Shown here: piece after piece, positions 7,304 through 10,575 of the stretch | How positions within the stretch are numbered: position 1 is the first letter of the stretch | Layout of the letters: every line of letters begins with the position of its first letter | Source: Haloarchaeobius sp. HME9146 | GTDB taxonomy: Archaea > Halobacteriota > Halobacteria > Halobacteriales > Natrialbaceae | DNA: 64,000 nt | Direction of reading: 5' to 3' | Assembly: GCF_025399835.1 (NCBI RefSeq) | Contig: NZ_JAODVR010000002.1 | Coordinates: forward strand, 1 to 64,000 | The notes under the pieces: model-generated | What the model saw: the letters and a program-made list of their open reading frames with translations, nothing else | Databases searched by the model: none | What the model was told of the DNA's origin: nothing | Translations under genes and position numbers: made by a program

Positions 7304-8341
7304 ATGGTGCTCTTCGGTCTCCTGCCCGACTCGACGGTACTGAACGTCGTCGCCATCCTCGTGGCGACGGGCTTCATCTGGCTGGGTAGCGGGTGGCTCG
7401 AAGAGTCCGCCGAACACCTCTCTGCGTACTACGGGCTCCCGGCCGTCGTACAGGGCTCCATCGTCGTCGCCGTCGGGTCGAGCTTCCCCGAACTCGCCAG
7501 CGTGGTGTTCGCCTCCCTCGGTGGCGCGTTCAACATGGGCGTCGGTGCCATCGTCGGGTCGGCGATCTTCAACGTCCTCGTGATACCTGCCCTGTCGGGC
7601 ATCGTGACCGACGACGAGCTCGAGACGAGTCGTACCATCGTCTACAAAGAGGCGCAGTTCTACATGCTGGCTGTCTCGGTACTGGTCGTCACGTTCGCCC
7701 TGGCGGTCATCTACGCACCGGTGCCAGGCGCGCCGGAACTCACGGGCAGTATCACGCGGCCACTCGCGGTGATTCCGCTCCTGCTGTACGGGCTCTACCT
7801 GTTCATCCAGTGGCAGGACGTCAGCGACCACGAGGCCGAGGTCGCCCCGCCGGGCATCCGGGTCGGTCGCGAGTGGGGACGGCTGGCCGTCGGTCTGTTG
7901 GTCATCCTCGTCGCGGTCGAACAGCTCGTCCACGGCGTCGAGTACCTCGGGGCCACGTTCGGTATTCCGGAGTTCCTCGCGGGCGTCACCATCCTCGCAG
8001 CGGCCACGAGCCTCCCCGACATGCTGGTGAGCGTCCGGTCGGCACGAGCAGGCAACGGGGTGACGAGCCTCGGAAACGTCCTCGGGTCGAACACGTTCGA
8101 CCTCCTGGTGGCGCTTCCTATCGGCGTGCTCATCGTCGGCAGCGTCCCCATCGACTTCGCCGTGGCAATCCCGATGATGGGTGTGCTCACGCTCGCGACG
8201 GTCCTCCTGTTCGCCATCATGCGGACCGGGCTATCGCTCAGCACCCCGGAATCTTACGCGCTCCTGGTTGCGTACCTCGCGTTCGTGGTCTGGGTCGTCG
8301 CCGAGACCGCCGGGGTGACGGATCTCATCCGGGGTGCGTGA
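7304..8341 (+). CDS. Sodium/calcium exchanger family (CaCA) antiporter
   Basis: The 345-residue protein has about ten transmembrane helices arranged as two inverted halves. The signature alpha repeats are GSSFPELASVVFASLGG (about 58-74, continuing to GAIVGSAIFN) and AATSLPDMLVSV (233-244) followed by GNVLGSNTFDLL. A hydrophilic loop near residues 171-192 separates the halves. Such proteins exchange Ca2+ or other cations for Na+, H+ or K+ across the cell membrane; specificity cannot be read here. Start 7304 gives the normal N-terminal helix. A strong hairpin follows the stop. Confidence 0.88.
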   Translation: MVLFGLLPDSTVLNVVAILVATGFIWLGSGWLEESAEHLSAYYGLPAVVQGSIVVAVGSSFPELASVVFASLGGAFNMGVGAIVGSAIFNVLVIPALSGIVTDDELETSRTIVYKEAQFYMLAVSVLVVTFALAVIYAPVPGAPELTGSITRPLAVIPLLLYGLYLFIQWQDVSDHEAEVAPPGIRVGREWGRLAVGLLVILVAVEQLVHGVEYLGATFGIPEFLAGVTILAAATSLPDMLVSVRSARAGNGVTSLGNVLGSNTFDLLVALPIGVLIVGSVPIDFAVAIPMMGVLTLATVLLFAIMRTGLSLSTPESYALLVAYLAFVVWVVAETAGVTDLIRGA

Positions 8342-8356
8342 CCGCCCCATTGCACA

Positions 8357-8386
8357 GCGGACCGGGTCGCGGTGCGCCCGGTCCGC
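8357..8386 (+). terminator. Perfect 10-bp stem-loop after the exchanger gene
   Basis: GCGGACCGGG and CCCGGTCCGC form a 10-bp perfect GC-rich inverted repeat with a 10-nt loop, starting 16 bases after the exchanger stop and 24 bases before the TATA box of the permease unit. Its position between two transcription units suggests a 3' end structure. No T-tract follows. Confidence 0.5.
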
Positions 8387-8409
8387 GAGAGAGGAAACTG
8401 ACGCCCGAG

Positions 8410-8418
8410 TTATATTAT
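8410..8418 (+). promoter_or_regulatory. TATA box of the permease operon
   Basis: GTTATATTA is an isolated AT run in GC-rich DNA. Its centre is about 27 nt upstream of the ATG at 8441, so the predicted transcript would begin at or next to that ATG rather than near the permease start at 8488. Confidence 0.6.
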
Positions 8419-8440
8419 GTTGCCCGTCGAACCGGGCTGT

Positions 8441-8491
8441 ATGGCCCTGTCAGACAGCTGTGGCGGTGACGACGGGACGAGGGCGGCATGA
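8441..8491 (+). CDS. 16-codon leader ORF overlapping the permease start
   Basis: ATG 8441 opens the frame MALSDSCGGDDGTRAA and stops at TGA 8489-8491, which overlaps the permease ATG (8488-8490) as ATGA. The TATA box sits at the leaderless distance from this ATG, so the leader would be the first codon of the mRNA and the permease would be translated by coupling. The peptide has no run of one amino acid as in classical attenuators. It is too short to be proven coding from sequence alone. Confidence 0.45.
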   Translation: MALSDSCGGDDGTRAA

Positions 8492-9909
8492 GCCACGCCG
8501 GGGACCGCTCTCCGACCGCCAGCCTCACGCTGCTCGACGCGACGATGGTCGGCATCGGCGCGATGATCGGCGCGGGCATCTTCGTGCTGACCGGCCTCGC
8601 AGCCAGGGGTGCTGGCCCCGCGGCCCTCGTCGTGTTCGCGCTCAACGGCGGGGTCACGACGTTCACCGCGCTCTCGTACGCCGAACTGGCGGCGGCCATC
8701 CCCCGGAACGGCGGCGGGTACGCCTACGTCAGGGAGGTGTTCTCCGCGCCGGTCTCGTTCGTCATGGGCTGGACGCGCTGGTTCACCTACATGATTGCCG
8801 GCGCTCTCTACGCGCTCGGGTTCTCCTCGAACTTCGTCGAGTTCTTCCACATCTACGGCATCACGCTCCCAGGACCACCAGTCGCGTACGCGCTGGCGGC
8901 CGTCGTCGCCTTCGTGACGCTCAATGCGGTCTCGACCGAGGCGAGCGGGAGTGCGGAGACGCTCATCACCCTTGTCAAAATCGTCATCCTGCTCGTGTTC
9001 GTCGCGTTCGGCCTCTCCTTTGTCGACCTGGGTAATTTCGAGCCGCTGTTCCCGAACGGCCCCATCTCGGTGCTGCCCGCGATGGGCCTGACGTTCATCG
9101 CGTTCCAGGGGTACGACCTCATCGCGACGGTCACCGAGGAGGTCGAGAATCCCCAGAAGAACATCCCGCGAGCCATCCTGCTCTCGGTCGTCGTCACCAT
9201 CGTCGTCTACCTGCTCGTCGTGTTCGTCGCCATCGGCACGCTCGGCGCGGAGGGCCTCGGTGGGGCTGGCGAGACGGCCATCGCGCAGGCCGCGGAGAGC
9301 TTCATGCCGGCGCTCCCCATCATCGGGACCGGGGCGGCCATCATCGCCTTTGGTGCCGTGTTCTCGACCATCAGCGCGCTGAACGCGGTCGTCATCGGCT
9401 CCAGCCGCGTCGCGTTCGCGATGGGGCGCGAGAGCCAGCTCCCGAAGCGCCTCGGCCGGCTCCACGTCAAGTACGGGACGCCGTTCGTCGCCATCGTGGC
9501 CAGCGCCGCCGTGATGTTGCTCGCCGTCGTCGTGGTCCCCATCCGCATCGTCGGCAACCTCGCGAGTCTGTTCTCCCTGCTCGGGTTCGTCATCGTGAAC
9601 CTCAGCGTCATCCGGCTCCGTCGTCAGCAGCCCGACCTCCGCCGTCCCTTCGAGATTCCGTACTACCCGATTCCGCCCATCCTCGGTATCGTCCTCAACC
9701 TGCTGCTCGGGCTGTTCATCGACCCCGTCACGTGGGTGCTGGCGCTCGCGTGGCTCGCCATCGGCGTCGGCGTGTACTGGCTGCTCTCACGCCGCGGTGC
9801 CGTCGAGGAGGTCGAGGACATCGAGGACGTCGTCGGAGAGCCCGAACCGGAGATCGCCGAACCGGAACAGGACATCACCCTCCCACCAGCGGACGAAACC
9901 CAGGACTGA
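8488..9909 (+). CDS. APC superfamily permease
   Basis: The 473-residue transporter has about 12 transmembrane helices. The first contains GAMIGAGIFVLTG, the unwound-helix substrate site of the amino acid-polyamine-organocation family. An acidic cytoplasmic tail of about 40 residues (EEVEDIEDVVGEPEPE) follows the last helix. The gene is preceded by the overlapping leader ORF and followed after three bases by an RCK/TrkA-type gene, so the two probably form one unit. The substrate is unknown: amino acid uptake is the family default, but pairing with a K+-sensing type domain leaves cation transport (as in KimA/KUP members of the superfamily) open. Confidence 0.85.
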   Translation: MSHAGDRSPTASLTLLDATMVGIGAMIGAGIFVLTGLAARGAGPAALVVFALNGGVTTFTALSYAELAAAIPRNGGGYAYVREVFSAPVSFVMGWTRWFTYMIAGALYALGFSSNFVEFFHIYGITLPGPPVAYALAAVVAFVTLNAVSTEASGSAETLITLVKIVILLVFVAFGLSFVDLGNFEPLFPNGPISVLPAMGLTFIAFQGYDLIATVTEEVENPQKNIPRAILLSVVVTIVVYLLVVFVAIGTLGAEGLGGAGETAIAQAAESFMPALPIIGTGAAIIAFGAVFSTISALNAVVIGSSRVAFAMGRESQLPKRLGRLHVKYGTPFVAIVASAAVMLLAVVVVPIRIVGNLASLFSLLGFVIVNLSVIRLRRQQPDLRRPFEIPYYPIPPILGIVLNLLLGLFIDPVTWVLALAWLAIGVGVYWLLSRRGAVEEVEDIEDVVGEPEPEIAEPEQDITLPPADETQD

Positions 9910-9912
9910 CCC

Positions 9913-10575
9913 ATGTCACAGAGTACTCAAGAAGACCTTCGCGTCATCGTCGCCGGCGGCGGAACCGTCGGCCTCCGAACCGCCGAACTGCTCGCCGACC
10001 GCGGCCACAGCGTCGTCATCGTCGAACCGGATGCACGGAGAGCCGACCGTCTCAGCGACGAGTACATCGGCACCGTCATCGAGGGCGACGCGGCTCGACC
10101 CTCGATTCTCAGACAGGCCCAGCCCGACCGCTCGGACGTGGTCGCCGCACTCACCGACGACGAGGCGACCAACTTCGCCATCTGCATGGCCGCCCAGCGC
10201 ATGGCCGACATCCGCGCCGTGATGCGCATCTCCGAGGGCGAGGACGACCTCTACAGCGAGTACGTCGACGGCGTCGTCTTCCCCGAGTCGCTCGGGGCTC
10301 GCGCCGCGGTCAACGAGATAATCGTCGAGGGCGTCCGGACCCTCGAGGACATCGGCGGGAACGTCGAGGTGGTGGAAGTGGAGATCGCCGACGACGCGCC
10401 CGCGGCCGGGAAGACCTTGGAGGAGGTCCGGCTGCCGCGTGGGAGCCTCATCGTCGTGGATGCAGAGGGGAACCAGCTTGGTGGCCCCGAGACGGTGCTG
10501 GAGCCCGGCAATCGCTACGTGGTCGCGGTGGAGTCGGACGTGATGGACGAAGTGATGAACCTGTTGCGGGGCTAG
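9913..10575 (+). CDS. TrkA/RCK-domain regulatory protein
   Basis: The 220-residue soluble protein has an N-terminal Rossmann RCK (TrkA-N) domain with GGGTVG at 15-20 and an acidic residue (Glu38) ending strand 2, expected to bind NAD(H) or ATP. A TrkA-C (RCK-C) domain follows from about residue 140 to the end, including APAAGKTLEEVRLPRGSLIV. These proteins gate K+ channels and transporters. Here the partner is most likely the APC permease three bases upstream, not a TrkH. Its last 12 codons (DVMDEVMNLLRG) are duplicated at 15194-15232. Confidence 0.88.
   Translation: MSQSTQEDLRVIVAGGGTVGLRTAELLADRGHSVVIVEPDARRADRLSDEYIGTVIEGDAARPSILRQAQPDRSDVVAALTDDEATNFAICMAAQRMADIRAVMRISEGEDDLYSEYVDGVVFPESLGARAAVNEIIVEGVRTLEDIGGNVEVVEVEIADDAPAAGKTLEEVRLPRGSLIVVDAEGNQLGGPETVLEPGNRYVVAVESDVMDEVMNLLRG
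10537..10575 (+). repeat. Left copy of 39-bp direct repeat (3' end of the trkA-like gene)
   Basis: This is the terminal 39 bases of the trkA-like gene, encoding DVMDEVMNLLRG and stop. The first 24 bases are identical to 15194-15217. The remaining 15 match at 11 positions, and all four differences are synonymous. It is a candidate attachment site or duplication end. Confidence 0.7.

Follow-up and report, generated by a model that had tools for sequence, protein, structure and literature searches.

A conserved mini-ORF probably delivers ribosomes to an overlapping amino acid permease start in haloarchaea

Introduction

The closest described system comes from mycobacteria, where leaderless coupled small ORFs begin with an RTG at the 5' end of the transcript and overlap the annotated gene through RTGA (Shell et al. 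2015, PMC4633059). In the example given in Fig. 6B of that paper the peptide is not conserved, while the leaderless start and the linkage are. A review that cites the mycobacterial work proposes short upstream ORFs (uORFs) as ribosome deliverers in prokaryotes (PMC12548453). For haloarchaea, overlapping gene pairs of Haloferax volcanii are reported to show downstream translation that depends strictly on the upstream gene, in 9 of 9 pairs tested (Huber et al. 2019, PMC6728339), and this coupling drops steeply with distance (Huber et al. 2023, PMC10666635). According to the same two papers, a Shine-Dalgarno (SD) motif in the upstream frame is common in haloarchaeal termination-reinitiation pairs, with a contribution that varies by pair. 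The uORFs of H. volcanii, as described by Babski et al. (2016, PMC4983044), were sought only in 5'-UTRs of 150-250 nt.

Here we analyze a 16-codon leader ORF that overlaps the start of an amino acid permease gene in Haloarchaeobius sp. HME9146, located in a window of 64,000 nucleotides, the whole stretch of DNA that was analyzed, which reads as haloarchaeal by its base composition and its named relatives. Like the mycobacterial coupled small ORFs, it is short, has an RTGA overlap and appears free in its peptide; unlike that case, which concerns bacteria and for which start sites and footprints are given as measured (PMC4633059), ours lies in an archaeon, is argued from sequence and is followed through 24 orthologues. 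With the H. volcanii termination-reinitiation pairs, which have an SD inside the upstream frame where the focal leader has a weak SD-like stretch, it shares the ATGA junction and haloarchaeal ribosomes, but there the upstream partner is an ordinary gene and here it is a mini-ORF with a non-conserved peptide (PMC6728339, PMC10666635). It also resembles the H. volcanii uORFs, which are short (15-31 aa) and lie upstream of haloarchaeal genes, several of them transporters; section 12 of that paper, unlike the present work, does not discuss coupling at an overlap (PMC4983044). Both components are known already, namely coupled leaderless mini-ORFs in mycobacteria and ATGA coupling of ordinary genes in Haloferax. 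Among the papers that the searches listed, no title or abstract opening describes the combination in archaea, two H. volcanii ribosome-profiling studies lying beyond the search.

Results

The permease gene (8488-9909, + strand) encodes an APC-family amino acid permease of 473 aa (Pfam AA_permease_2, 3.2e-56), whose nearest solved chain is 5oqt, deposited under the title 'Amino acid transporter'. A 146-nt gap separates it from a Na+/Ca2+ exchanger gene that ends at 8341, and this gap contains one strong TATA box, GTTATATTAT, at 8409-8418 on the + strand. The box is the best TATA-like site in 8300-8480, with TATATTAT at 8411 as the top-scoring 8-mer; on the rough TATA matrix used here, its score is reached at just 4 positions along the + strand of the whole 64-kb window. 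The transcription start is predicted from the TATA spacing at 8440-8441 (+ strand). The leader ORF (8441-8491, + strand) begins with ATG 8441-8443, comprises 16 sense codons, MALSDSCGGDDGTRAA, and ends with TGA 8489-8491. As the first-pass annotation had pointed out, this TGA overlaps the permease ATG (8488-8490), and the resulting ATGA occupies 8488-8491 on the + strand, a stop/start overlap of the kind found in termination-reinitiation pairs. A weak SD-like GAGGG is located within the leader at 8479-8483 (+ strand). A stop at 8467-8469 interrupts the permease frame, and no start codon lies between it and 8488, which is therefore the first possible permease start. Another ATG in frame with the leader, at 8417 upstream, lies inside the TATA region and would therefore be untranscribed from that TATA box.

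Additional features surround the locus. The gene of a TrkA_N/TrkA_C protein (Pfam; 9913-10575, + strand) starts 3 nt after the permease stop, and by this spacing the two genes likely belong to the same operon. A TrkA_N/TrkA_C (RCK-type) protein is an unusual partner for an amino acid permease, and it may gate the permease. Between the exchanger gene and the permease promoter, at 8357-8386, there is a perfect 10-bp inverted repeat without a T-run, possibly a terminator or an operator. A scan for bacterial promoters and terminators was set aside as uninformative for archaea.

We called genes by codon usage on 464 kb of the genome, which yielded 425 genes, 295 of them with at least 60 nt of free upstream DNA. 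TATA-like matches in this genome peak 23.5-29.5 nt before gene starts, with a mode of 26.5 nt. The TATA centre of the leader promoter lies 26.5 nt from leader ATG 8441, and no TATA is found at leaderless distance before permease ATG 8488 (best score 0.1). Therefore 8441 is the expected leaderless start and 8488 does not fit, in line with the earlier proposal that the box is placed for a start at ATG 8441. The same spacing predicts that, as in the mycobacterial type, the ORF stands at the 5' end of the transcript.

Within a single genome the arrangement is not rare, and one instance alone could be chance. Of the 295 promoter-proximal genes in the genome sample, 17 have an ATG ORF upstream that spans at least 10 codons and ends on NTGA; requiring a TATA at leaderless distance that scores 4 or higher reduces this to 4/295, and at 5 or higher only the focal locus is left. 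Genome-wide, NTGA shows no enrichment (8/37 among ORFs whose TATA scores 3 or more vs 67/348 among all RTG ORFs). A stricter comparison, ATG with a TATA score of at least 4, gave 4/8 vs 15/93 (one-sided Fisher p 0.039), with small numbers and a threshold picked post hoc. We hold the arrangement to be real because it is conserved in relatives, not because it is rare.

Orthologues were collected from 125 genomes of the family, 55 loci of a named genome collection, 391 genomes of the class, and two more families (170 and 146 genomes), keeping matches of E 1e-90 or stronger that had a start codon close to the aligned N-terminus. The 68 loci obtained represent 47 distinct upstream regions after removal of 21 duplicates, and the protein tree comprises 46 loci, since L036, a 97-aa fragment, was omitted. 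In the tree, 24 distinct orthologues form one clade (branch support 94, not starred); they come from the own genus, Haloarculaceae, Halobium, Halogranum, Halogeometricum, Salinigranum, Haloferax, and other genomes. In 22 of these 24, a TATA box is present together with a 14-23 codon leader whose stop forms NTGA with the permease start; the closest relative retains both a 16-codon leader and the ATGA (MALADSYRGAHGERPA). Coupled leaders are also found outside the clade in L015 and L020, giving 24 coupled loci in all, every one with the NTGA overlap. As for the two exceptions within the clade, L073 has no leader and carries GGAGG before the permease start, while L016 (Halogeometricum limi) has an ATG that is well spaced from a weak TATA but stands in another phase. 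The 31-codon frame of L016 overruns the permease start by 17 nt and stops at +14, and represents a natural frame-broken case. Fifteen loci were classed as leaderless, 11 in tree parts adjoining the clade and 4 in a branch farther away. On the tree, 4 changes are required for the coupled label, against a shuffled mean of 15.7, and leader length changes at least 6 times, always by whole codons. A test suggested earlier was whether relatives conserve the small ORF and ATGA, and a leader frameshift in close relatives had been named as grounds for refutation; such conservation is seen in the closest relative and most of the clade, and a frameshift only in the more distant L016. Judged from these sequences, the conservation of the coupled leader is not chance.

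The phase of the leader ATG was compared with several nulls, in which the loci are related and the draws not independent, though their upstream sequences have diverged strongly. When the last 70 nt were dinucleotide-shuffled, the mean was 2.9 coupled loci out of 24 and the maximum 10 in 1000 shuffles, against 20/24 observed on a strict count. All 20 ATGs at -53 to -35 in the clade are in the coupled phase, with 0 in the other two phases; at -70 to -35 the coupled phase has 22, the permease frame 11, and the third phase 3, the extras lying mostly within promoter sequence. Among the 19 loci with an ATG at least 22 nt after the score-chosen TATA, the phase is coupled in 19. The score-chosen TATA adjoins the leader ATG in L032 and misses a better-spaced TATA at -110 in L016, and with better-spaced TATA boxes assigned by hand to these two loci the count is 20/21. 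We also considered the second permease codon, which is AGY in 24/24 coupled loci, as a coupling signal, and dropped this argument, AGY being usual in the non-coupled relatives too (14 of the 15 non-coupled loci with Ser); overall, the Ser codons within these genes are 134 AGY vs 398 TCN. Because non-coupled relatives usually share this TGA-forming codon, an NTGA by itself counts as weak evidence.

The anti-SD duplex of the -22 to -4 stretch has an energy of -6.4 kcal/mol at the focal permease. The medians are -8.0 kcal/mol in the 24 coupled loci and -5.2 in the 15 leaderless loci, compared with -3.2 where the upstream DNA is free (265 genes) and -9.5 where genes overlap or abut (47 genes). The median of the coupled permeases is near that of the overlapping genes, so they are more like operon junctions than gene fronts, the focal one weakly. 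G-rich SD-like stretches before most starts in the coupled clade would also suit a plain 5'-UTR, on which the SD-like stretch brings ribosomes straight to 8488, with the leader frame as an incidental feature. Such a 5'-UTR does not need a fixed ATG phase, yet the ATGs at -53 to -35 are without exception in phase, and SD-led initiation does not work at the H. volcanii 5'-UTR tested in PMC3986360; we therefore regard a plain 5'-UTR as unlikely.

The TATA-to-leader distance is 34-38 nt in 8 of the 22 leader-bearing clade members (four Haloarculaceae and four Haloferax-group loci from one Haloferax subgroup), and hence a short 5' leader of about 8-12 nt, not strict leaderlessness, is expected there. 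In the orthologue of Haloferax gibbonsii (L019) the spacing is 26.5 nt, as at the focal locus. In L023 a second, stronger TATA at -52 would bypass the leader. The leaderless state proposed by the first-pass annotation thus stands, as a prediction from TATA spacing, for the focal locus, and does not extend in its strict form to all relatives.

Next to the architecture, the peptide itself varies freely. Across five Haloferax species, variable sites in the leader number 7, 6, and 4 of 15 each at codon positions 1, 2, and 3, compared with 2, 0, and 5 (each out of 19) over the initial permease codons; in five other sets the leader likewise lacks a consistent excess at the third position. A leader peptide could serve as an attenuator or amino-acid sensor, with stalling setting the permease level. 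The leader does precede an amino acid permease, and the leaders look Arg-rich, with 57 Arg in 278 residues vs 42.5 in mononucleotide shuffles (5/500 reach 57). The Arg excess is nevertheless gone under dinucleotide shuffles, 101/400 of which reach 57, and no residue bias survives; arginine sensing was rejected on this ground. No conserved fold was found in the 9 loci tested (z-scores -1.95 to +1.02), and hairpin-controlled restart was likewise rejected given these unremarkable z-scores and the lack of a common start sequestration. With a peptide that is neither conserved nor residue-biased and codon positions that vary alike, a sensing role appears very unlikely. In the orthologues the architecture is conserved more than the peptide. 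Since the peptide drifts without codon-position bias, residue bias, or a common fold, selection seems to act on the start, the frame, and the stop and not on the product. A kept frame with a free peptide is what would be expected if it is the translation of the leader that counts.

The palindrome CTGTCAGACAG at 8447-8457, a few bases downstream of the predicted transcription start, is a possible repressor site. It would fit an explanation in which what is conserved is a DNA element, operator or promoter, close to the start site, with the ORF as a by-product, as would the conserved motif that relatives of an MMPL exporter (see below) have before their leader. However, the palindrome is only partly kept in L007, and the upstream sequences diverged while the frame was retained, which makes this explanation extremely improbable.

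The same coupled mini-ORF design precedes a gene for an MMPL exporter (Pfam) in the genome sample (L110:17974-18024; G000:C1:378024), a family unrelated to the permease. Of 30 homologues fetched, 20 align up to the N-terminus, and 18 of these related and paralogous loci have a coupled leader (17 NTGA, 1 TGATG), against a mean of 1.8 and a maximum of 8/20 in shuffles. In these 18 MMPL loci, from the homologues L123-L150, an SD lies inside the mini-ORF. Many MMPL loci contain a motif like GTTTGTAGGATCGTAACAACAG directly before the mini-ORF ATG, perhaps an operator. Because this family repeats the design in 18 of 20 cases, the coupled mini-ORF looks like a class in haloarchaea.

In a two-genome comparison of 216 gene pairs (median upstream identity 0.76), NTGA leader ATGs were kept with their class in 10/14 cases (9 genes) vs 31/88 for other out-of-frame or stopped ATGs (one-sided Fisher p 0.012), TGATG/TAATG cases falling in the control class ph2_up, which weakens the contrast and does not inflate it. 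For ATG conservation alone, the figures were 10/14 vs 41/88 (p 0.074). This comparison suggests that some per cent of promoter-proximal genes use coupled leaders. The gene of an ammonium transporter (Amt; L109:8186-8233, G000:C1:348233) has a 15-codon leader ending in TGATG, which is found in the own genome and in G001 (L153) only, and is absent from the other relatives fetched. Both this candidate and one at an HTH_10 gene (L108), which is present in only one additional genome out of 60, were rejected.

Discussion

We propose, with a probability of roughly 80%, that the leader acts as an ORF for ribosome delivery: it would be started leaderless, and termination-reinitiation would couple it to the permease. 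According to this model, transcription would begin at or within one base of A8441, and ribosomes would initiate leaderless on ATG 8441 and read 16 codons of no particular sequence. They would then terminate at TGA 8489-8491 and reinitiate on the overlapping permease ATG at 8488, perhaps assisted by the weak SD-like stretch inside the leader, and the leader peptide would have no function of its own. With no leaderless start at the permease itself, permease synthesis is expected to require translation of the leader. The first-pass annotation had described the leader as a control device; the coupled design behind this idea is conserved in the clade, while regulation is unsupported, and ribosome delivery suffices.

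The design may extend beyond the permease. We tentatively consider, at somewhat less than even odds, that haloarchaea possess a general and overlooked third mode of gene start, a promoter-proximal leaderless mini-ORF of arbitrary sequence whose sole job is ribosome delivery to the overlapping main start. This mode would serve several per cent of promoter-proximal genes, including transporters, and would swap with plain leaderless starts in evolution. Haloarchaeal mRNAs are mostly leaderless, and SD-led initiation failed at the H. volcanii 5'-UTR tested (PMC3986360), which bears on how leader-bearing genes are started. The conserved frame with its free peptide would provide a clean natural case in which selection keeps the translation of a mini-ORF, not its product, and it carries the warning that gene finders and 5'-UTR studies in archaea may overlook such mini-ORFs.
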